From NCBI GenBank assembly GCA_029256105.1, contig JAQSYO010000002.1:124001-188000 (forward strand): 64,000 bases of DNA, read 5' to 3'. Below, piece after piece: positions 3,195-39,078 of this stretch (within the stretch, counting starts at the first letter, position 1; every line of letters begins with the position of its first letter). The stretch is from Herbinix sp. GTDB taxonomy: Bacteria; Bacillota; Clostridia; Lachnospirales; Lachnospiraceae. Under the pieces are notes generated by a model. That model was not told where the DNA came from. It ran no database searches and saw nothing but the letters and a program-made list of their open reading frames with translations. The translations under genes were made by a program, and so were the position numbers.

Positions 3195-5342
3195 ATGAGA
3201 AAAAATAACAGGTCGGACAAAGGTAGTATAAATGTTAGGAGCCGTATCCGGCAGTTCATAGTAGGTTTAAGACAAAGGACGGATAAATCTGTGAAATGGT
3301 ACCTAAGTATTAGGATGAAATTGATACTATCCTTTCTGATTTCTGTCAGCTTTGTAATAATTATAGGATCTGTATCTTATAATAAAGCCTCCAAGGCAAT
3401 TATCGAAAATTATGATGCGTCTTGTCAGCAAGCCATCGATATGACTGGGGAATATATTAGCTTTGGTCTTGAGTCCGCCGAATCAACAGCGATGCAATAT
3501 TCCATTGATACAAAAATTCAAAATTATTTATATGGAATTTATAATGAAGATCCAGTGGAATTATATAACATTAATAAGGATATTACATCTTCACTGTTGG
3601 CGAGACAAGCTTCCGATCAGTTCATTGAGAATATTCATATGATGTCTTCCTCGATCGAAAGAAATATGTCTACATCGGGAATATTCATTAGTGGACTCTT
3701 CAAGGAGTTCAGTGAATCGGCAGCAGCAAGCGGTTTAAAGGATGGTACCAACGCTAGTTATTGGATAGGAAAGGATGAGGCCCTTGATCAAAGGTTATCC
3801 TTGGACACAGATGCATATGCAATGCGACATATCAAGAGCTTTAATAATGGGGAAGCTATTATTATAATTGATATCAGCACTTCCTCACTGCAAGCGATAT
3901 TAGAGCGGCTGGATTTTGGTAAAGGCAGCATCGTTGGTATGGTTACCAGTGATGGAAGAGAGTTTATTAATTCTTCTGAGGTGAATACGGCTGAGGGAAA
4001 TTCTTCTGAGGTCATCCTCGGACAGGAAGAATTTTACAAGTCCTCGGTACAGTCAGAAGATATTAGTGGAAGTGAAAATGTAACTTATCAAGGGGATAAT
4101 TATCTATATCTATATTCTAAGGTAGGAGATACCGGAGTAACAATCTGTGCGTTGGTTCCGGAAGAAACCCTCCTGCAAAAGATTAACAGTATAAAGAATT
4201 TAACAATTTTATTGGTTTTCATAGCAAGTATTCTTGCTATTATTATCGGCGTATTAATGGCAACAGGAATTCAACATATTATCCAACATATCATCGGAGA
4301 GCTTAAGAAAATATCACAAGGAAATCTTACGGTAAAGTTAAAGGTAAAGAGAAAAGACGAATTTCTTGTACTAGCAGAGGGCGTCAATGATACGATAGAT
4401 AATATGCGAGGTCTAATTGAAAGGGTATTTAAAGAAAGTGCCTCAGTGACAAAATCCTCCCTACAAGTCCGAAAATCGTCTGAGGTCTTTTCACGAGCAA
4501 CGGAAGGCATCACAGAAGCCATTAATGAAATTCAGACAGGAATAAATCAACAAGCGCAAGACTCAGAAAACTGTTTGGTTCAAATGGATGGTTTATCCAA
4601 TAAAATAACCTTAGTTATGGGTAAAACGAATGAAATCAGTTTGATTGCAAAGGATACGAAATATAGTATCAAGCAGGGTGTCGATACAATGCAGACCTTG
4701 AATTCAAAGGCCAATTCAACGACAGAAATTACGCAACAAATCATACATAACATTGAGACGCTGGAAGAAAAGTCAAAATCCATCAGTAAGATTGTTGGAA
4801 CCATTAACAGTATAGCAGCTGAGACAAATCTGCTATCTCTGAATGCTTCTATTGAAGCAGCAAGAGCAGGTGCAGCTGGTAGCGGGTTCAAGGTGGTTGC
4901 TACAGAGATAAGAAAATTGGCTGACCAATCCGTCCAGGCAGTACATGAGATCGAAACGTTGATCAAGGATATCCAAAAGGAGACAAAAGCAGTAGTTATC
5001 ACCGCAAACCAAGCAGAAACTATTGTAATGGAGCAGGGAGTCGCTGTAGGTGATACCGAGAAATCCTTCTCGGATATGAACGATCATGTGGAACGGTTAA
5101 TCGAGAATGTTGCTATGATTTTAGACAGTATCCATACAATGGAGGAATCCAGAGCGAATACGCTTGCCGCCATAGAAAATATATCGGCTGTATCTCAGCA
5201 GACGGCAGCAGCGACTCTATCCGTCGGCGAAGCAACAAATAGCCAAATGGAAGCTGTGATATCGTTGGATTCTTTATCGAAGGAATTAAGCGAAAATGCA
5301 CTAGCATTGGAAGAGGCAATTGACCGGTTTAAAGTGGAATAA
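3195..5342 (+). CDS. Methyl-accepting chemotaxis protein with double-transmembrane periplasmic-type sensor
   Basis: Transmembrane chemoreceptor of 715 residues. The basic N-terminus precedes TM1 (about residues 42-64). An extracytoplasmic sensor domain of about 270 residues follows, then TM2 (about 335-357), a HAMP linker (about 358-410) and a long helical signalling domain. The signalling hairpin tip is clear (ETNLLSLNASIEAARAG, residues about 545-562) and would bind CheA/CheW. AGAAGGAG ribosome binding site is 8 nt before the ATG. It sits 120 bp downstream of the GH31 gene in the same direction. A link between sugar sensing and the neighbouring glycosidases is plausible but inferred. No CheR/CheB docking pentapeptide is visible at the C-terminus (ends FKVE). 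Confidence 0.95.
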   Translation: MRKNNRSDKGSINVRSRIRQFIVGLRQRTDKSVKWYLSIRMKLILSFLISVSFVIIIGSVSYNKASKAIIENYDASCQQAIDMTGEYISFGLESAESTAMQYSIDTKIQNYLYGIYNEDPVELYNINKDITSSLLARQASDQFIENIHMMSSSIERNMSTSGIFISGLFKEFSESAAASGLKDGTNASYWIGKDEALDQRLSLDTDAYAMRHIKSFNNGEAIIIIDISTSSLQAILERLDFGKGSIVGMVTSDGREFINSSEVNTAEGNSSEVILGQEEFYKSSVQSEDISGSENVTYQGDNYLYLYSKVGDTGVTICALVPEETLLQKINSIKNLTILLVFIASILAIIIGVLMATGIQHIIQHIIGELKKISQGNLTVKLKVKRKDEFLVLAEGVNDTIDNMRGLIERVFKESASVTKSSLQVRKSSEVFSRATEGITEAINEIQTGINQQAQDSENCLVQMDGLSNKITLVMGKTNEISLIAKDTKYSIKQGVDTMQTLNSKANSTTEITQQIIHNIETLEEKSKSISKIVGTINSIAAETNLLSLNASIEAARAGAAGSGFKVVATEIRKLADQSVQAVHEIETLIKDIQKETKAVVITANQAETIVMEQGVAVGDTEKSFSDMNDHVERLIENVAMILDSIHTMEESRANTLAAIENISAVSQQTAAATLSVGEATNSQMEAVISLDSLSKELSENALALEEAIDRFKVE

Positions 5343-27175: not shown

Positions 27176-27210
27176 ATAAAATCTCTCCTTTTCAATTCGC
27201 GATACAAGAT

Positions 27211-27300
27211 GAATTGGTATTAAATGAATTAGTATTGAATGAATTAATATTGAATGAATTAGTATTAAATGAATTAGTATTTAATGAATTAATAATAAAT
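27211..27300. repeat. Six-copy 15-bp tandem repeat upstream of hypA
   Basis: Six contiguous 15-bp units with consensus GAATTAGTATTRAAT fill the space just before the hypA ribosome binding site. Copies differ at one to three positions. The unit length is a multiple of three, but the array is outside any convincing reading frame. Confidence 0.9.
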
Positions 27301-27343: not shown

Positions 27344-30025
27344 TTAATGTTTTATAAACACATTTACCGCTTTTTTCATTGCGATTTTACCCTTACGTTT
27401 CAGGATTTGCTTAACAACTACCGGTTTTAACTCTTCATATGCTACGCCGGTGCCGTTATATTGTCTAACAAGGGAAATCGCATCGAACTTACATTTCATT
27501 GTGCAAGCCCCGCATCCAACACATAAGTATTCATTCGTAACGGTTGCACCACAGTTAAGACAGCGTTCTGTCTCCTTCATAACCTGCTCATTGGTAAAGG
27601 TAACACGTAAATCCTGGAACGTTTCATTGGATTTAATTCCCTCCGTATGTCCCGCTTTTTGTCTTGGAATACGATCGTATCCTTCCAGATCTAGGTTTTC
27701 TTTATCCAGTATATGATATTCCCTTCTGTCACGACCGATTGTTAAGCTTTGTCCAGGCTGAACATAACGATGGATTGAAATTGCACCTTGCTTACCTGCA
27801 GCTATTGCATCAATAGCAAATCTCGGACCTGTCAGTACATCACCACCGGCGAATACATCCGGCTCTGTAGTCTGGTAAGTAAAAGCATCTGCTTTGATTG
27901 TCTTGTTGGGATTAAGCTCTATCATACTGTCTACTAATAGGTTGCCATAATCGATTGCCTGACCGATGGAAAGTAATACGTTATCGGTAGCCACAAGGAT
28001 AGTATCGCTTTCATCATACTTCGGATTGAAGTTGTTATTAGCATCAATTGTGGAAATACATTTTTTGAATTCTACACCAACAACATGGCCACTTTCTGTA
28101 ACAATACGTGTCGGACCCCAGGAATTATTGATTATAATATCCTCTTCAATCGCTTCTTCAATTTCTTCGTCAAGAGCCGGCATGGCCTCACGGCTTTCAA
28201 GGCAGAACATAGCTACTTTGGAAGCACCGGTTCGAACAGCGGTTCTTGCAACATCGATGGCAACGTTACCACCGCCTATTACAAGTGTTTTACCTTCGAG
28301 TTGGCAGTTCTCGCCTAAGTTTACCCTTCGTAAGAATTCAACACCTGTAATTACACCTTCGGCTTCTTCACCCTCGAGACCAAGTTTTCTTCCTAACTGT
28401 GCGCCGATGGCAAGATAGAAGGCTTCGTATCCCTGGCCTCTTAAGTCCTTCAGACTAACGTCTTTGCCAACTTCAACGCCGGTCTTAAACTCAACACCTA
28501 ATTCTTTCAGTATCTCGATTTCTGCATTCACTACCTCTTTCTCGAGGCGGAAAGAGGGGATACCCAGTGTTAGCATGCCACCAAGTGCTTTTTGTTTTTC
28601 AAATACAGTTACCTTATAACCGTCAAGGCTTAAGTAGAAAGCGCAAGAAAGGCCTGCAGGCCCGGCACCGATAACAGCAATTTGATTACCATATTCATGC
28701 CTTTTTTTTGGTACATAGCGTTGCTCCTTGCTCAGATCCTGTTCAGCAATAAACTTTTTGATTTCATCTATAGCGACAGGAGAATCTACATCACCTCTGG
28801 TACAAGCAGATTCACATTTTCGTGGGCAGATACGTCCACATACCGCAGGGAACGGATTTTCATATTTGATTAGTTCAAGTGCCTCGGTATATTTACCTTG
28901 AGAAGCCAACTTAATATAACCTTGAATAGCAATATGAGCAGGGCATTCTGTTTTACAAGGACTGGTTCCGCTGTCAACAACATCTTTTCGGTTGGTACGA
29001 TAGTCTGGATTCCATTTGTCTGGACCCCACTCTGTATTACGTGGAGTCTCACTTTTTTTTATCGGAATTGGAGTAACCGCACATAACTTTTGGCCTAGCT
29101 GTAACGCATTAACCGGGCAATTCTCAACACATTCACCACAGGCAACACATTTATCCTTATCCACATGGGATACATAATTGGAACGTACCATATCAACATT
29201 TTTGAACATCGAGGCAGTTCTTAAAGCTAGACAGGAACATCCACAGCAATTACAGATGGCATGAGTTTTACCGGAACCGTCTAAGTTCGGGATTTGGTGC
29301 ATCAGACCATTTTCTTCGGCTCTTCTAATGATTTCAAAAGCTTCTTCGCGGGTAATCTCGCGACCTCTGCCGGTTCGAATATAGTATTCGGCTGCATGAC
29401 CCATCTGAATACACATATCCTCTTTTAAATGTCCACAGCCTTCCCCCATTGATTCCCTTGCCGTACGACAAGAACAATCCGATACGGAGAAAATAGTGTT
29501 ATCCTTCAGGTATTTAGAGACCTCCTCATAGGAAGCTTTTCTGGTCTCGCCATCAATTGCCTGTTCGATAGGAATTACACGCATTAGGCCTACACCTACA
29601 GGAAAAGCACCTACCGTCCTAGGACCTCTAACTCTTCCGTATGCTTCAAAAGCTTCTGCAATTTGAGGAAACTTTTTAACATTTTCCTTGTTGTTCACCA
29701 TCATTTCCATAATGCCAGGAACCCAAGTGTCATACCAGTAGGTATCTACACCATTAATAACATTAACAAAACACACACCGGCATAGGCCAAATCCCATAA
29801 GAGTTTGGATGTATGATCAACGGTTTTACCACACAAAGGAGCAAGCTCCGCAGCAGTTACTTTTTTACGTATCTCCATGCAAAGAGCAACTTCCGCCATT
29901 TCCTCAGTAACAACAGGCTCAAGGATCATGTATTCCGGGTCTTCAGGTCTGATTTCATTCTTTGAGCCGCGTTTTTTCTTACTAATATGATTCGCTAGAT
30001 CTAATACCTTTTCATTGACAGCCAT
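27344..30025 (-). CDS. Multidomain Fe-S/FAD NAD(P)-linked oxidoreductase (GltD-like)
   Basis: An 893-residue soluble redox protein. Residues 1-120 look like a winged-helix region. Residues about 180-275 hold clustered Cys (CSCRTA, CNCCGCSCL). A ferredoxin motif follows (CVACGECVENCP, about 294-305). Next is the GltD-type Fe-S domain (CKTECPAHI, CGRICPRKCESAC, about 355-405), an FAD-binding motif (IAVIGAGPAGLSCAFYL, about 450-466) and an NAD(P) motif (LVIGGGNVAIDVA, about 580-592). A C-terminal ferredoxin domain (CLNCG, CVGCGACTMKC, about 830-860) completes it. It resembles NAD(P)H-dependent electron-bifurcating or ferredoxin-linked enzymes. The substrate is unknown. It lies between hypB and hypA, 29 bp after hypB. 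Confidence 0.88.
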   Translation of the reverse strand: MAVNEKVLDLANHISKKKRGSKNEIRPEDPEYMILEPVVTEEMAEVALCMEIRKKVTAAELAPLCGKTVDHTSKLLWDLAYAGVCFVNVINGVDTYWYDTWVPGIMEMMVNNKENVKKFPQIAEAFEAYGRVRGPRTVGAFPVGVGLMRVIPIEQAIDGETRKASYEEVSKYLKDNTIFSVSDCSCRTARESMGEGCGHLKEDMCIQMGHAAEYYIRTGRGREITREEAFEIIRRAEENGLMHQIPNLDGSGKTHAICNCCGCSCLALRTASMFKNVDMVRSNYVSHVDKDKCVACGECVENCPVNALQLGQKLCAVTPIPIKKSETPRNTEWGPDKWNPDYRTNRKDVVDSGTSPCKTECPAHIAIQGYIKLASQGKYTEALELIKYENPFPAVCGRICPRKCESACTRGDVDSPVAIDEIKKFIAEQDLSKEQRYVPKKRHEYGNQIAVIGAGPAGLSCAFYLSLDGYKVTVFEKQKALGGMLTLGIPSFRLEKEVVNAEIEILKELGVEFKTGVEVGKDVSLKDLRGQGYEAFYLAIGAQLGRKLGLEGEEAEGVITGVEFLRRVNLGENCQLEGKTLVIGGGNVAIDVARTAVRTGASKVAMFCLESREAMPALDEEIEEAIEEDIIINNSWGPTRIVTESGHVVGVEFKKCISTIDANNNFNPKYDESDTILVATDNVLLSIGQAIDYGNLLVDSMIELNPNKTIKADAFTYQTTEPDVFAGGDVLTGPRFAIDAIAAGKQGAISIHRYVQPGQSLTIGRDRREYHILDKENLDLEGYDRIPRQKAGHTEGIKSNETFQDLRVTFTNEQVMKETERCLNCGATVTNEYLCVGCGACTMKCKFDAISLVRQYNGTGVAYEELKPVVVKQILKRKGKIAMKKAVNVFIKH

Positions 30026-33254: not shown

Positions 33255-34130
33255 ATGGAAGATTTAAAATTGTCAGAACGTTTCGCATTAATGGGTTTAA
33301 ATGGTAAGGAAAGTGAACATAGGAATACCGCAAAGCAAAGCGTATTAAGGGCTTTGTCGGTTGCATTATATCTTGAAGAAAACTATGATAACTTGACGAA
33401 CACATGGAATTTTGATACGGTTGGTATTAAGAAAGCAATTAAGAATAGCAAAATGAAAGTTGTAGAACAACAAATAGTGATTAGCCTCGAGAACAAAAAT
33501 CTGATTGGCAAAGTCAAAAGCTTACTAGGGTGTGACCTTTATTATGATAAGAATATAAAGATTAAGGAGTATGTAAGCGCTAGTAAGGAATTCGATTGCC
33601 AGTTGGACTTAATAAGAGCTGAGTTCTTAGAGGAAGGTCCGATTTCAGAGGAAGGAATTATTCTAGCTTGGCTTCTCAGAGAATCATTATGCATTCATGA
33701 TTATTTCTCAAACCTGGAGCAGCATAAAGTAGCTATTCGAATGGCGAATCTTTGTGATGAGAGTAAGTTGGCAAAAGCTTTGTATCCAATTGAAATACGC
33801 TCAGTCTGGGGAACGATGGTAGGAGGCTACCTACGAATGAAAAGCCATGCGGCATCAACTGAAATAGGGAAAGGCTTAAATTTCATATTTCCGTTTCTAG
33901 AGCGAAATCAATCGATATTCATAGATACTGAGAAATATTTTGCCAATGCCCAAATGAGACTACAGAATGTATTGGACAGAGTGCTTTCACAGGGACATAC
34001 CTGTGAGGTTCTAAGTACCGGAGATGTACCTGTTGTTAGAATTGATAATACGAAGTATGAGCTGGTTCCAGAAGCAATTTTAGTAAAAATTCCAATCCAC
34101 GGAGTAAGATTACGTCGTTATAATTATTAG
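33255..34130 (+). CDS. Protein of unknown function (291 aa)
   Basis: I do not recognise this protein. It is soluble, mainly helical, with no signal peptide or membrane segment. The N-terminus (LKLSERFALMGLNGKES, then SVLRALSVALYLEENY) loosely resembles GPP34-type phosphoinositide-binding proteins, but the match is too weak to assign. The C-terminal 40 residues are beta-like (EVLSTGDVPVVRIDNTKYELVPEAILVKIPIHGVRLRRYNY, residues about 251-291). GGGAGGAGAC precedes the ATG. A small MerR-like gene starts 10 bp downstream, so the two are cotranscribed. A 7-bp tandem repeat lies in the upstream region. Confidence 0.7.
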   Translation: MEDLKLSERFALMGLNGKESEHRNTAKQSVLRALSVALYLEENYDNLTNTWNFDTVGIKKAIKNSKMKVVEQQIVISLENKNLIGKVKSLLGCDLYYDKNIKIKEYVSASKEFDCQLDLIRAEFLEEGPISEEGIILAWLLRESLCIHDYFSNLEQHKVAIRMANLCDESKLAKALYPIEIRSVWGTMVGGYLRMKSHAASTEIGKGLNFIFPFLERNQSIFIDTEKYFANAQMRLQNVLDRVLSQGHTCEVLSTGDVPVVRIDNTKYELVPEAILVKIPIHGVRLRRYNY

Positions 34131-34139
34131 GAGAAGGGT

Positions 34140-34394
34140 ATGTCAAGACAACGAACCATGGAAAAGATAATGGTATCAGAATATGTATCCATAGGTGAAT
34201 TAGTATTACTAACCGGTACCAGATACAGTACTCTTAAGTTTTATACGGAAGAGGGAATGCTGCCTTTTGAGCAAGAGGATACCAAACTGACAAGGCGATA
34301 TAAGAGAGTTGAAGCAGTAAAACGAATAGAAGAAATAATGACAATGAGGCAGAAAGGTAGCACAATACCTCAGATTAAAGAACTTTTGCCATAG
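34140..34394 (+). CDS. Small MerR-like helix-turn-helix protein
   Basis: An 84-residue protein consisting of little more than a MerR-type winged helix: SIGELVLLTGTRYSTLKFYTEEGMLPF (about residues 18-44), then a YKRVEAVKRIEEIMTMRQKGSTIPQIKELL recognition-helix region. It lacks the coiled coil and effector domain of full MerR regulators, so it resembles excisionase-type or accessory DNA-binding proteins. GGAGAAGGGT precedes the ATG. It lies 10 bp after the 291-residue unknown gene and is probably cotranscribed with it. Its target is unknown. Confidence 0.8.
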   Translation: MSRQRTMEKIMVSEYVSIGELVLLTGTRYSTLKFYTEEGMLPFEQEDTKLTRRYKRVEAVKRIEEIMTMRQKGSTIPQIKELLP

Positions 34395-34964: not shown

Positions 34965-35918
34965 ATGGCTAAAGAGATTGAAATGGAAAACAATAAAATA
35001 GGTTCTGCAATTCTATACTTCCGTGAATCTTATCATATCTCGCAAAGTAAACTATGTAAAGGATTATGCTCTGTAGCGACTTTATCGAGAATAGAAGTGG
35101 GCGAACGTGATGTTGATTCATTATTATTAGAAACATTACTGGAACGGTTAGGGAGAATGTCAAATCAATTTGAATTGATATTGACAGATTTTGATTATGT
35201 ATTATATCAAAATAGAGAAGAAATTAAGAAACAAATTGAAAATAAAAATTATAATGCAGCTTCCACATTACTACAGGAATATGAACAAATCGCAGCTTCA
35301 AAGGGAAACGTTCACCTGCAATTTATTATTAGTAGTAAAGCGTTACTAAATGAATTAAATGGAGGATCAGTGGAAGCGACGATTGAGTTGTTTATGGAGG
35401 CTATTTCCTATACGGTTCCTGACTTTAAGACAAACAAGATTAAAGATTACTATTTAAGTAATAGTGAATTGAATATTATTATAGATGTGATCCAACGTAT
35501 GATAGCAGTTGGAATGACTGAAAGAGCAAAGGCAATATTGGTACAAGTTTTAGTGTATTTAGATTTACATAATTCAGTGGAAGAAAATAATAGACTTTAT
35601 CCCAAAGTAGCAATAATTGCTAGTAGGCTTTTTATGCAGGATCGAGATCTGAACCAGGCGCTTGAAATGTGTAATAAAGGAATTGAAAAAAATAAGGGAA
35701 GCCGTAAGATGGATTATCTGGGAGAATTATCTCTCATCAAGGCTCAGACAACAGAAGAATTATTAAAAGCAGATAAGAAATGGGAGAGCTCACAAAAAGA
35801 GTGCTTGAAGTTATATCTGCAAGCGTATTACATTTATGATTTTTGCGAGGAATATGACACAGCAAAGAGTATTAGAAGTTACCTACAGGAGGTATACAAA
35901 TGGGTAGATATCGATTAG
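34965..35918 (+). CDS. RRNPP-like regulator: helix-turn-helix plus TPR domain (copy A)
   Basis: A 317-residue cytoplasmic regulator. An XRE-type helix-turn-helix occupies about residues 12-66 (ILYFRESYHISQSKLCKGLC, then SVATLSRIEVGERD). The rest is an all-helical TPR array (about residues 80-310), the layout of PlcR, NprR, Rgg and related receptors that bind imported peptide pheromones. It overlaps the next gene, a paralogue with the same layout, by 19 bp. A convergent gene 7 bp beyond the pair encodes an exported repeat protein that could be the source of the peptide ligand. The ATG has only a weak upstream ribosome binding site (GGATGGGAT). Confidence 0.88.
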   Translation: MAKEIEMENNKIGSAILYFRESYHISQSKLCKGLCSVATLSRIEVGERDVDSLLLETLLERLGRMSNQFELILTDFDYVLYQNREEIKKQIENKNYNAASTLLQEYEQIAASKGNVHLQFIISSKALLNELNGGSVEATIELFMEAISYTVPDFKTNKIKDYYLSNSELNIIIDVIQRMIAVGMTERAKAILVQVLVYLDLHNSVEENNRLYPKVAIIASRLFMQDRDLNQALEMCNKGIEKNKGSRKMDYLGELSLIKAQTTEELLKADKKWESSQKECLKLYLQAYYIYDFCEEYDTAKSIRSYLQEVYKWVDID

Positions 35919-36835
35919 GAGATATTATACGTATGACTAGAAAATCCCTATCCATTACTCAGGAACAATTAAGTGATGAAATCTGCTCCGTTGAAACACT
36001 ATCAAGGATTGAGAATGGAAATCAAAATCCGAGTAGAGATACCTATGAATTATTAATGGGACGTATGGGTCGGATTAGGGAAAGAGCATATTCGATGCTT
36101 TCTGTTTCGGATTTTAAAGTGTTGGAAAAAATTAAGTTGTTTGAAGACTATATAAAATTATATGACTTTAATCAAGCGGATCGTGTTTTAAAAGAGATAA
36201 AAAAAATAATGGGAAATTCGATTTTAGATAAGCAGTTCTTAATCAGAGCGGAAAGTCTGGTTAATTACCGACTAAAACGAATTAGTACTGAGGAATTCCT
36301 TGAGGGTTTCCAAAAAGCAATACAATTAACTATTCCTAAGTACGGATCGATATCCTTATCCAAGTGGCCGTTGAATTTTAATGAAGCAATGCTACTTATA
36401 AATATATCCATTGCATATGCTGAAAAAGAAGATTATTTAAAAGCAATTAGCGATATTGAAGAAGTATATAGTGCTATGAAACAGAGTTATATGGAAGAAC
36501 AACAAAGAGTTATTTTACAGGTGACAATAGCAACCAATCTCTCTAAATGGTATGGATTAATAGGGAACTATGAAAAGGCAATTGAGATTGCAAATGAAGG
36601 TATCGTTATGTGCAAAAAGTTTAAGTTGGGTAATGCGCTCCCAAATCTATTATACGGTGTTGCATGGAATAAAGAACGATTACTAAAATTAGGAATTTTA
36701 TCACTCGAGGATAAGAGAGAGTGTCTTATGTATTTAAAACAAGCTTATTATATAGCATCTGCAATGCAGCTATCATTTATGGAAGAATTTGTGGAACAGC
36801 ATATCGCAACAGTATATAATATCCCGATAGATTAA
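35900..36835 (+). CDS. RRNPP-like regulator: helix-turn-helix plus TPR domain (copy B)
   Basis: A 311-residue paralogue of the preceding gene. The helix-turn-helix (about residues 4-58) reads GDIIRMTRKSLSITQEQLSDEIC then SVETLSRIENGNQNPSRDTYE, closely aligned with copy A (shared CSV-TLSRIE motif). The TPR domain fills about residues 75-305. CAGGAGG within the end of copy A is 8 nt before the ATG, so the two proteins are translationally coupled. Having two receptors in tandem suggests heterodimerisation or discrimination between two peptide variants. It ends 7 bp from the convergent repeat-precursor gene, so the two transcripts may overlap. Confidence 0.88.
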   Translation: MGRYRLGDIIRMTRKSLSITQEQLSDEICSVETLSRIENGNQNPSRDTYELLMGRMGRIRERAYSMLSVSDFKVLEKIKLFEDYIKLYDFNQADRVLKEIKKIMGNSILDKQFLIRAESLVNYRLKRISTEEFLEGFQKAIQLTIPKYGSISLSKWPLNFNEAMLLINISIAYAEKEDYLKAISDIEEVYSAMKQSYMEEQQRVILQVTIATNLSKWYGLIGNYEKAIEIANEGIVMCKKFKLGNALPNLLYGVAWNKERLLKLGILSLEDKRECLMYLKQAYYIASAMQLSFMEEFVEQHIATVYNIPID

Positions 36836-36842
36836 TTAACTA

Positions 36843-37526
36843 TTAAGCTAATACGATGGTGGAAAAATGGCTGGTATGGATTAATTTATCATCAATGGAA
36901 GCAGATTCGATGGGAGGGCAATCACTAGCGAGGAGCTGGCCGTCATCAATGGAAGCAGATTCGATGGGAGGGCAATCACTTGCTAGGAACAGACCGTCAT
37001 CAATGGAAGCAGATTCGATGGGAGGGCAGTCACTAGCGAGGAGCTGTCCGTCATCAATGGAAGCAGATTCGATGGGAGGGCAATCACTTGCTAGGAGGAG
37101 ATTGTCATCAACGGAAGCAGATTCAATGGGAGGACAATCACTGGCAAGGAACAGACCGTCATCAACGGAAGCGGATTCGATGGGAGGGCAATCACTGGTA
37201 AGGAGCAGACCGTCATCAACGGAAGCGGATTCGATGGGAGGGCAATCACTGGTAAGGAACAGACCGTCATCAACGGAAGCAGATTCGATGGGAGGGCAAT
37301 CACTGGTAAGGAGCAGACCGTCATCAACGGAAGCAGATTCGATGGGAGGGCAATCACTGGTAAGGAAGAGACCGTCATCAATGGAAGCAGATTCGATGGG
37401 AGGACAATCGCTAGCAAAGGTTTGCCCTTCATCAGAATTTAATATTTGACCTTTTACTAATGGAAGAGCAATGCTCAGAAGTATAAATAATACGGCAACA
37501 ATAATATTTTTTTTGAAAGTTTTCAT
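36843..37526 (-). CDS. Exported tandem-repeat peptide precursor (candidate pheromone precursor)
   Basis: A 227-residue protein. A signal peptide (residues about 1-26: basic MKTFKKN then hydrophobic IIVAVLFILLSIALPLV) is followed by a short spacer and ten contiguous 18-residue repeats (residues 39-218). The repeat is SDCPPIESAS[IV]DD[GNK]xxx[TA]; the first 13 positions are nearly invariant and only the last five vary. It ends SHFSTIVLA. AAGGAG lies 7-8 nt before the ATG. It is convergent with the pair of HTH-TPR regulators and 7 bp from them. The layout recalls a precursor processed into many copies of a short peptide. Alternatives are a RiPP or a structural repeat protein. The coding strand is chosen on ribosome binding site and signal peptide. 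Confidence 0.8.
   Translation of the reverse strand: MKTFKKNIIVAVLFILLSIALPLVKGQILNSDEGQTFASDCPPIESASIDDGLFLTSDCPPIESASVDDGLLLTSDCPPIESASVDDGLFLTSDCPPIESASVDDGLLLTSDCPPIESASVDDGLFLASDCPPIESASVDDNLLLASDCPPIESASIDDGQLLASDCPPIESASIDDGLFLASDCPPIESASIDDGQLLASDCPPIESASIDDKLIHTSHFSTIVLA
36873..37412 (-). repeat. Ten-copy 54-bp coding tandem repeat
   Basis: Exactly ten in-frame 54-bp units encode the 18-residue repeats of the exported precursor. Units 7 and 9 have identical protein sequence, and units 1-4 alternate GLFLT and GLLLT endings, suggesting expansion by two-unit duplications. Confidence 0.97.
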
Positions 37527-37613: not shown

Positions 37614-37647
37614 TTAATATGATGTAATTATAAGTTCCATATAATTG

Positions 37648-37708
37648 AAAAACCATGTCGTATTTGGAAAATTTTATTTTTTATTTTTCCAAATACGACA
37701 TGGTTTTT
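37648..37708. repeat. Perfect 24-bp inverted repeat (strong hairpin)
   Basis: A perfect 24-bp stem (37648-37671 with 37685-37708) has a 13-nt T-rich loop and poly-A/poly-T ends. It lies between the divergent repeat-precursor gene and the EAL-domain gene, where no upstream transcript is known to need termination. Confidence 0.85.
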
Positions 37709-37773
37709 TTACTTCACATAATCTAGAATATTAATTGACCACTACTAATGTCTGAATACAAGAGAGAAGTACT

Positions 37774-39078
37774 ATGGGAAAAACGAATATGAGGCCTGCA
37801 TATAATGATTCATTAAATGGATTACCTAAATCGAATTTATTAAAGAATATATTAACGGAATATATTCTGCAAAGCTCATGCAGACAATTTGCTGGAGTAG
37901 ATAGGTTTGCACTTGTGTACCTGGATATTGAAAATTTTAAATACCTTAATCAGACTTATGGATATAAAGTTTGTGATGAAATAATAAATTGTGTAGAAAA
38001 TTATCTCGTGAGAAATGTAAAAAATTCTAGTTGCGTAGCGAGGATAACCAGTGATAAATTTGCGATATTATTTACAGATATTAAGGCGAATTCAGGATGG
38101 TATGAAACCATAGATGAGATCATAAATAACGGCTTTAATATAAATACATTTAATCACGTATTTTATATAACGATGAGTGCCGGAATTGCATTATATCCTG
38201 AACATGGGAGAGATATTGATTCCTTAATGAAAAAGGCAGAAACAGCGAATTATTCTGCTAAGAAAACAGGGAAAAATATTAATATATATAGTGATGAGCT
38301 TCAGCAGGATATTATAGAACAAGTACAGATGGTAAATAAGCTTCAGAATGGAATAGAGAAGGAAGAATTCACGCTTTATTATCAGCCTATGTTTAAATTG
38401 AATTCAAATGAAATAATAGGTGTTGAAGCTTTGGTAAGATGGCCACAGCCGATGAATGAATTTATCTCACCAGAGATATTCATACCGATAGCGGAAAAAT
38501 CAAAGCAGATTTATGAGCTGGAGAGATGGATTATAAATAAAGCCTTACAACAAAAAGAGCAGTGGGAAAAGGATGGACAAGATTATATTGAGTTATCAAT
38601 CAACTTGTCGAGTAAAACTTTGGAGAGCGAAAGTAATTTCCAAAAAATCGAAAAGATAATTTCTTCTTATAAAGTAAATTATTCAAAGATTATTATAGAA
38701 ATTACGGAAACCGTTATTATTTCAAATATTGATTTAGCAATAGAGAGATTAAATAGGCTAAGAAGTTATGGAATTAAAATAGCTTTGGATGATTTCGGTA
38801 CAGGTTATTCTTCTTTGACTCATATCTTGAAGTTACCAATTGATATTATTAAGATAGATAGAAGCTTTATAAAATCAATACCAAATGGTAATGAAGAAAT
38901 GGTTATTACACAAAATATGATATCCTTAGCGCATGATTTGAATTACAAAGTAGTGGCGGAAGGTATAGAGACTCAGGAACAATTAGAATATTTAAAAAAG
39001 ATATCCTGTGAATTTGGTCAAGGCTACCTTCTATGCAAACCTTTACCGTCCGATAGGTTACATGAAGTTTTAATATAG
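37774..39078 (+). CDS. Degenerate GGDEF plus EAL domain protein (c-di-GMP phosphodiesterase)
   Basis: A 434-residue cytoplasmic protein. Residues about 15-170 form a GGDEF fold, but the active motif is SDKF instead of GGDEF (in ARITSDKFAILF), so cyclase activity is unlikely; this domain may bind GTP. Residues about 190-430 form an EAL domain with the catalytic set kept: EALVRW, the SINLSS loop, EITET, LDDFGTGYSSL, KIDRSFI and VVAEGIET. It therefore probably hydrolyses c-di-GMP. There is no sensor domain or membrane segment. GAGAGAAGTACT precedes the ATG. It is monocistronic with a clear terminator at 39176. Confidence 0.93.
   Translation: MGKTNMRPAYNDSLNGLPKSNLLKNILTEYILQSSCRQFAGVDRFALVYLDIENFKYLNQTYGYKVCDEIINCVENYLVRNVKNSSCVARITSDKFAILFTDIKANSGWYETIDEIINNGFNINTFNHVFYITMSAGIALYPEHGRDIDSLMKKAETANYSAKKTGKNINIYSDELQQDIIEQVQMVNKLQNGIEKEEFTLYYQPMFKLNSNEIIGVEALVRWPQPMNEFISPEIFIPIAEKSKQIYELERWIINKALQQKEQWEKDGQDYIELSINLSSKTLESESNFQKIEKIISSYKVNYSKIIIEITETVIISNIDLAIERLNRLRSYGIKIALDDFGTGYSSLTHILKLPIDIIKIDRSFIKSIPNGNEEMVITQNMISLAHDLNYKVVAEGIETQEQLEYLKKISCEFGQGYLLCKPLPSDRLHEVLI

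Follow-up and report, generated by a model that had tools for sequence, protein, structure and literature searches.

A 64,000-nucleotide stretch of a Herbinix sp. genome (Lachnospiraceae; contig JAQSYO010000002.1, positions 124,001 to 188,000), referred to here as the window, contains a locus that very probably encodes a PlcR-PapR-like quorum-sensing system of the RRNPP type, with a peptide signal. Two genes on the plus strand, overlapping by 19 bp, encode candidate receptors with a helix-turn-helix (HTH) and tetratricopeptide repeats (TPR). Receptor A (P0002; positions 34965-35918, 317 aa) has HTH and TPR-like parts and is of the RRNPP type, and receptor B (P0003; positions 35900-36835, 311 aa) is PlcR-like. 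The gene of the putative pheromone precursor (P0001; positions 36843-37526, minus strand, 227 aa) is convergent with receptor B, lies 7 bp from its stop codon, and encodes a signal peptide and ten 18-residue units. An earlier reading of the stretch from its letters only (the sequence-only reading) had described this arrangement, and the coordinates, the open reading frames (ORFs), and Tandem Repeats Finder agreed with it. Our assignment rests mainly on the conservation of the locus, on single-copy relatives of the precursor, on the receptor folds, and on a promoter box. The estimated contamination of the assembly is 7.48%; the locus lies on a 407-kb contig and is conserved in relatives.

Conservation of the locus and copy number of the peptide

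Receptor B had matches in 21 of 34 congeneric genomes (own genome included in the set): 20 orthologues, among them its own and four that are fragmented or truncated at contig ends, plus a distant homologue with 32% identity (genome G029). In all 20 orthologue genomes, receptor A was located directly upstream, with an overlap of 19 or 28 bp when ORFs were read from their first start. A small convergent precursor, exported as judged by eye from its signal peptide, adjoined receptor B in all 18 testable congeners, own included, as is expected of RRNPP systems. The contigs of G007 and G015 stop within receptor B, and these two genomes were left out of the precursor and locus-box tests; in G031 and G033, the contig shows no more of the precursor than the array (the N-terminal part of the G031 precursor is on another contig), and G033, whose contig ends in the array, was also left out of the locus-box test. 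The sequence-only reading had proposed looking for the repeat in relatives and asking whether it co-occurs with the receptor pair. The outcome did not refute its proposal: a plain search with the repeat protein found six of the 34 genomes, and the five others all had the pair. Among named strains, Mobilitalea sibirica DSM 26468 and Herbinix hemicellulosilytica T3/55 carry the locus. One locus (L085, G008; positions 3828-4915) had receptor B as two ORFs, through either decay or assembly error, while receptor A, the precursor, and the box looked intact.

Precursors with a single C-terminal peptide, which is the usual RRNPP shape, were found in 11 of the 18 genomes (ORFs of 40-78 aa), with endings such as SDLPFVD (G025), SDLPYAD (G018), SDFPEID (G023), and SDLPAIDW (G012). 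The other seven carried 3 to 10 copies: ten in the window (period 18), at least seven in G033 (9-residue period, SDLPPVLSA), six in G002 (period 12), six plus one degenerate unit in G010 (period 12), at least four in G031, four in G026, and three plus a degenerate stretch in G004. In a tree of both receptors from 16 species, the multi-copy species formed two groups with different periods; the units have therefore probably been multiplied on two or more occasions. The receptor B alignment and tree leave out G007 and G015, G026, which is spread over two contigs, and G008, whose receptor B is split in two.

The repeat array of the precursor

The array (positions 36889-37417, minus strand) was reported by Tandem Repeats Finder with a 54-bp period, 9.8 copies, and a score of 799. 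The N-terminus of the precursor (MKTFKKNIIVAVLFILLSIALPLVKG) resembled a Sec signal peptide when judged by eye; no Pfam family scored above its cutoff, and no NCBIfam family matched. All ten units were spaced by exactly 18 residues. Residues 1-10 (SDCPPIESAS) and 12-13 (DD) were identical in all of them, residue 11 was isoleucine in five and valine in five, and residues 14-18 were variable. The sequence-only reading had described the first 13 positions of the repeat as nearly invariant and the last five as a possible cleavage linker. This pattern held in all ten units; as a peptide, the unit is probably its first nine residues or fewer, since the arrays of four relatives end right after residue 9 (SDLPAILTV in G031, SDMPPIITA in G026, NDLPPTESY in G004, and SDLPPVWSA in G033) and one has a 9-residue period. 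The mature peptide, with ends placed from these comparisons, is thus most likely the 9-mer SDCPPIESA or a shorter form. The last nine residues of the precursor (SHFSTIVLA) stand at the place where an eleventh unit would begin and are perhaps the degenerate remains of one.

Pairwise comparison of residues 1-9 across the ten units gave 59 synonymous differences, which rest on at least five synonymous changes, and no nonsynonymous difference, where about 206 would be expected at the synonymous rate. The nonsynonymous to synonymous ratio was 0.73 for residues 10-13 and 0.49 for the linker. Including the possible degenerate eleventh unit changed the counts for the window array to 98 synonymous and 60 nonsynonymous differences. 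For the relatives, units were taken by spacing in G002, G031, G010, and G033 and by peptide only in G026; G004 was not among the arrays counted. The counts were 13 synonymous and no nonsynonymous differences in G002 (six units, the linker free of differences of either kind), 13 and none in the four visible units of G031, 10 and none in the last five units of G010 (18 and 20 with the preceding divergent unit), 46 and 6 in G033, which has one L-to-W unit, and 9 and none in G026, where the units had been picked by exact peptide.

The minus-strand reading of the repeat gene is conserved in relatives, and a plus-strand ORF across the repeats (positions 36856-37449, 197 aa) was taken as a by-product of the 54-bp period. 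Two further matches of the repeat protein in its own genome (E 0.08 and 1.7) were considered chance, the second being the opposite strand of the array. A search of general genome contigs with the repeat protein returned 47 stretches that fit a pattern, none of them a relative.

Structural models of the receptors

Pfam scored the HTH_3 domain of receptor B at 33.6 bits (cutoff 23) and reported no RNPP_C; receptor A reached 22.9 bits for HTH_3, and its RNPP_C match was weak and below cutoff (E 0.003). Single-chain AlphaFold (AF2) models built from 16- and 20-sequence alignments had a predicted local distance difference test score (pLDDT) of 86.1 for receptor B and 79.6 for receptor A. The top Foldseek match of receptor B was PlcR with PapR7 and DNA (3u3w, E 1.6e-8); ComR, Rgg2, and Rap came next. 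Receptor A was closest to PlcR (2qfc, E 1.3e-5), with kinesin light chain-like TPR proteins and Rgg2 close behind and Rap and NprR among the best matches. TM-scores to PlcR were 0.54-0.61 (normalized to query length) with a large root mean square deviation, so the likeness is to be read as agreement of fold class. Both models are predicted to combine an N-terminal HTH with a C-terminal TPR superhelix of the RNPP type, as RRNPP receptors do.

Profile searches against PDB sequences placed PlcR first for receptor B (E 6.3e-7), with ComR (E 0.014) behind two other proteins. For receptor A, the best match was a MutR/Rgg protein (E 7.5e-4) over the HTH end only; by sequence, therefore, receptor B is nearest to PlcR and receptor A is not. 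The HTH parts of both receptors were better conserved than the TPR parts. Against viral contigs, the receptor B profile gave 20 stretches that fit a pattern, none a relative.

A conserved promoter box

An inverted repeat (positions 37648-37708) with 24-bp arms and a 13-bp spacer was located between the precursor gene and a gene for a GGDEF-EAL protein (positions 37774-39078, plus strand; EAL E 3e-76, GGDEF E 4e-27 in Pfam), which would act in cyclic di-GMP (c-di-GMP) turnover as a phosphodiesterase and is a likely co-regulated output. Each arm contains the 18-bp box TTTTCCAAATACGACATG, in which no internal symmetry was evident by eye. The left arm points towards the precursor gene (box at 37654-37671, minus strand) and the right arm towards the GGDEF-EAL gene (box at 37685-37702, plus strand). 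A -10 element lies 21 nt past each box: TATAAT for the precursor promoter (37627-37632, minus strand, no mismatch) and TAGAAT for the GGDEF-EAL promoter (37724-37729, plus strand, one mismatch).

At two or fewer mismatches, 33 such arms were found in the 17 loci for which the region was available (both arms in 16, one in G006). Exactly 21 nt past the box, the match to TATAAT averaged 5.36 of 6 positions over these arms. None of the 33 reached four of six positions of a -35 element (mean 2.5, compared with 2.6 in shuffled sequences). Because the -10 element stands at 21 nt and the -35 element is missing, the position of the box, about -51 to -34, is that of an activator site overlying the -35 region, and the palindrome reads as two divergent promoters.

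The box followed after 21 nt by the -10 element (at most three mismatches in 24 positions) occurred in 18 of the 34 genomes, all of them with the receptor pair, and the reversed control gave one hit. It was found in none of the 14 genomes without a receptor B orthologue (Fisher p = 8.6e-8); in the two orthologue carriers that lacked it, G015 and G033, contigs are cut at the locus. Sites away from the locus test the link more freely. There, 19 boxes were present at zero or one mismatch, 18 of them in 11 of the 20 carriers and one in G029, and none occurred in the 13 genomes without any receptor B match. At two mismatches, there were four hits in three non-carriers (G005, G013, and G022) and ten in all for the reversed control, so hits at this level mean little. 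A -10 element with at least five of six matches was located 20-22 nt past 14 of the 19 off-locus boxes, compared with 0-6 of 19 for other windows on either side, and none of 5000 shuffles reached the observed mean. For a single fixed spacing over all 19, five of 1000 shuffles reached the best spacing.

Predicted regulon

Targets were predicted from DNA alone, with genes read in the direction of the box and distances given from the first base of the box to the start codon. Across the palindrome, a GGDEF-EAL or EAL gene was present in 13 of 16 testable genomes, own included; G012 and G033 offered too little sequence and were left out of this count. In its own genome, an off-locus box preceded a CcpM radical SAM maturase (136 nt, -10 TATCAT; TIGR04068 555.4 bits, cutoff 500) for a ribosomally synthesized and post-translationally modified peptide (RiPP), and another preceded a secreted GH11 xylanase (403 nt, the -10 being only TATATA). 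The case was weaker for a box with one mismatch and its -10 at 23 nt, located 810 nt before the gene of a large secreted protein that matches an alpha-1,3-glucanase domain. The same box preceded a GH11 xylanase in G031 (343 nt). In G028, it was directly before a peptide cleavage and export ABC transporter (80 nt; TIGR01193 above cutoff). In G014, it preceded a LytTR response regulator, and the next ORF, of the C39-ABC type, is truncated where the contig stops; in G016, it preceded a marginal LytTR ORF followed by an ORF that partly matches such a transporter below cutoff.

Seven off-locus boxes were judged weak: one inside a gene (L150), three with a poor -10 or a doubtful gene (L145, L152, and L157), one on a contig ending 161 nt further on (L148), and two with no convincing gene near (L143 and L151). 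L152 and L157, from two species, both have a one-mismatch box ending in GACAGG and a poor -10 before a gene that looks, by eye, like a threonine dehydrogenase.

Fused receptors in other genera

Relatives of receptor B (E 1e-10) were found in at least 44 of 397 family genomes, including its own and one congener with a match. These genomes were drawn from a larger group, at most five candidates per genome were scored, and loci came out for 30 of the matches, so family counts are lower bounds; distinct loci were counted by hand after duplicates had been dropped. Two HTH-TPR halves were joined in a single ORF of 581-681 aa at 13 of the 34 distinct loci scanned. The first half scored best with the receptor A profile in all 13, and the second with the receptor B profile in 12, the exception being L025 (103 bits for A, 101 for B). 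The order of the halves is thus the operon order, A then B. Two of six fused relatives scanned had RNPP_C above its cutoff of 26.5 (L014, 31.7; L027, 27.9). Since the two receptors are often a single fused protein in other genera, we infer that A and B act as one heterodimeric or two-headed unit that reads the asymmetric box, with heterodimer binding as the predicted mode.

A convergent ORF with a crude signal-peptide pattern followed the receptor in 20 of 45 rows, or 15 of the 33 distinct ones, compared with 2 of 78 for other genes; 12 of the 15 were within -16 to +8 bp of the receptor. Among seven distant precursor loci examined upstream, three had a box-like palindrome with 3-5 mismatches per arm (two in G227, and one in G057, which has a fused receptor). 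The distant receptor of G029 (L088) has its own long palindrome before the precursor (near 4210-4260, 21-bp arms, AAACCATAGCGTTTGACGAAA), which suggests that box and receptor change together. In G206 (L096), about 110-bp repeated blocks, each with a short inverted repeat, were observed in the 420 bp upstream of position 4677, before a possible precursor.

Discussion

We propose that the precursor would leave the cell by Sec and that extracellular proteases would cut the variable linkers, releasing up to ten copies of a peptide close to SDCPPIESA. An oligopeptide permease may then re-import the peptide; the oligopeptide-binding family SBP_bac_5 had eight matches in the same genome, two of them within one ORF. 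The TPR domain of receptor A, receptor B, or both would bind it, and the receptors, acting as one unit and most likely as a heterodimer, would occupy the asymmetric 18-bp box and activate transcription from the -35-less promoters whose box and geometry were observed. Predicted targets are the precursor itself, in positive feedback, the adjacent GGDEF-EAL gene, and off-locus genes whose products export or modify peptides or are secreted hydrolases. With ten units per precursor, each transcript would provide more signal. The chances are about even that two different PlcR-like receptors make up an obligate heterodimer class across Lachnospiraceae, fused into two-headed proteins in some genera, which reads an asymmetric box in place of a palindrome, so that box orientation sets the direction of transcription, and in which one to ten signal copies within a genus tune the dose heritably.

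Several observations weigh against a PlcR-PapR-type system. The HTH and RNPP_C scores of receptor A are below the Pfam cutoffs, its best PDB sequence match covers the N-terminal part only, and the TM-scores to PlcR are 0.54-0.61 with a large deviation. The window array possibly ends in a degenerate half-unit, and other arrays are not uniform (the divergent unit of G010, the L-to-W unit of G033, and two forms plus a degenerate stretch in G004). Distances between pheromones and between receptors showed no significant relation in Mantel and partial Mantel tests over 16 species (r 0.08-0.16, p 0.07-0.26). Co-occurrence of box and receptor is to some extent circular, the box being part of the locus, and its statistics come from related genomes, so the counts are not independent events. 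Taken alone, the seven perfect off-locus boxes show no one spacing at which the -10 peak is significant (294 of 1000 shuffles were as high). No box-like site was found at three of the seven distant precursor loci (G304, G206, and G320). G029, whose 32% receptor homologue has a different palindrome, carries a perfect box on another contig. This box (L155, G029:C116, position 1658) is of the genus type, has a good -10, and precedes a gene whose product looks secreted and belongs to no known family; contamination of this assembly is 9%.

The most serious competing account retains the pheromone system and changes the action of the receptors, which would be separate, opposed homodimers on one box, one activating and one repressing, as with Rgg2/Rgg3 and SHP peptides. 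That precedent (PMC3150281) and the better conservation of both HTH domains speak for it, and we consider it rather unlikely: 13 of the 34 distinct loci scanned encode the two as a single chain, A before B, which is easier to reconcile with co-operation than with competition, and the box shows no evident internal symmetry. The inverted repeat followed by T runs in the window could instead suggest that the palindrome is a bidirectional terminator or the site of an unrelated regulator. The palindrome, however, sits between divergent genes; its T runs vary while the arm sequence and the 21-nt distance to the -10 are kept, single arms elsewhere have the same -10 spacing, and genomes without a receptor B match lack boxes at zero or one mismatch, which together make a terminator or foreign site improbable.

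Two further accounts would give the precursor another function. Multi-core repeats with a cysteine, and the same box at the CcpM maturase, would suit a ten-core precursor of a RiPP (a modified antimicrobial peptide) under local control by the HTH-TPR proteins. Yet relatives do not keep the cysteine of the unit (SDLPP, SDMPP, and SDFPP), and none of the genes flanking the precursor was seen to encode a modifying enzyme, so that a RiPP appears highly unlikely. Ten near-identical repeats in 227 aa might also be a repetitive surface or secreted structural protein that stands beside regulators by chance; this is scarcely credible given single-copy versions at the same place in 11 of 18 genomes and a box shared with off-locus genes. 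An RRNPP-type receptor pair with an exported multi-copy pheromone precursor, as the sequence-only reading had supposed, is the interpretation that the conserved locus, the single-copy relatives, and the PlcR-like folds support well.

Among known systems, we regard the locus as an RRNPP variant nearest to PlcR-PapR. PlcR is a single receptor acting on the palindromic PlcR box, a sequence unlike the box described here; the window has two receptors, adjacent here and fused elsewhere, and an asymmetric 18-bp box. It further differs in occurring in Clostridia and not Bacilli, in a precursor convergent with the receptor, and in up to ten peptide copies. The HTH and TPR receptor fold is shared, PlcR being the top Foldseek match of both receptors, and so is a precursor with a C-terminal short peptide, [ASN][DE][LMV]P in PapR. 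PlcR has been described as an activator that binds a DNA box (PMC2464732), and the reported PapR pherotypes include ADLPFEF, SDMPFEF, NEVPFEF, and SDLPFEH, with CSIPYEY for PapRa (PMC3673130). The tetrad [ASNC][DE][LMVI]P, a pattern that was broadened to admit PapRa and defined when both sets were already at hand, occurred in 5 of 11 single-copy precursors (shuffle mean 0.22; none of 20,000 as high). The FE of PapR at positions 5-6 was absent from the single-copy congener peptides, and the likeness of the peptides may reflect homology or convergence.

The sequence-only reading had held that precursors normally carry one peptide and that the layout was therefore new. This part did not stand: multi-copy RRNPP precursors were described by Even-Tov 2016 (PMC5199041), and tandem propeptides with up to six (PMC9765709) and eight (PMC11343458) copies have been published. 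Ten copies exceed these published maxima, yet this is an extension of a known form. Rap-Phr systems likewise have several identical or near-identical pheromones per precursor through intragenic duplication (PMC5199041, PMC9765709, PMC11343458); they differ in that Rap is described as having no HTH (PMC9765709), and the window precursor has ten copies with a period of 18.

Rgg2 and Rgg3 are separate proteins with shared DNA targets. As two paralogous receptors in Streptococcus, with opposing roles reported (PMC3150281), they resemble the pair described here. SHP precursors are described as exported by PptAB, in contrast to the Sec route proposed for the window precursor, and no duplication was reported for Rgg precursors (PMC9765709). 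QsrR and QssR of Clostridium and AloR-AloP of Paenibacillus also have an RRNPP receptor beside a small exported precursor; the descriptions compared mention no paired or fused receptor. In the open-licence PMC literature, no description turned up of an RRNPP system in Lachnospiraceae, or of RRNPP receptors that are paired or fused and go with an asymmetric box; a paper on the Clostridioides difficile regulator RstA (PMC6414698) was among those that came up.

RRNPP systems are known best from Bacilli, and the locus offers a complete candidate (signal, receptors, promoter box, and targets), with signal through promoter conserved, in an anaerobe genus that includes users of plant polysaccharides. 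The fused receptors are a direct handle on whether RRNPP regulators work as heterodimers, and a genus in which signal copies range from one to ten offers a dose series made by nature. Fiber breakdown and competition would be tied to cell density through the predicted targets (c-di-GMP turnover, peptide export, RiPP maturation, and xylanases). At 227 aa, the precursor is longer than the usual 10-100 aa of RRNPP propeptides owing to its repeats. The default filters described for a published RRNPP scan accept receptors of 250-500 aa and propeptides of 10-100 aa (PMC10075063); as these would exclude the fused receptors and the window precursor, the class may be under-counted.

Other features of the window

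Upstream (5') of the receptors, positions 33255-34394 encode a 291-aa protein without an above-cutoff Pfam match, followed by an 84-aa MerR-type HTH protein. A separate 15-bp tandem repeat of 6.1 copies, also reported with a 45-bp period, is located at positions 27209-27300, beside the end of an 893-aa ORF (27344-30025).

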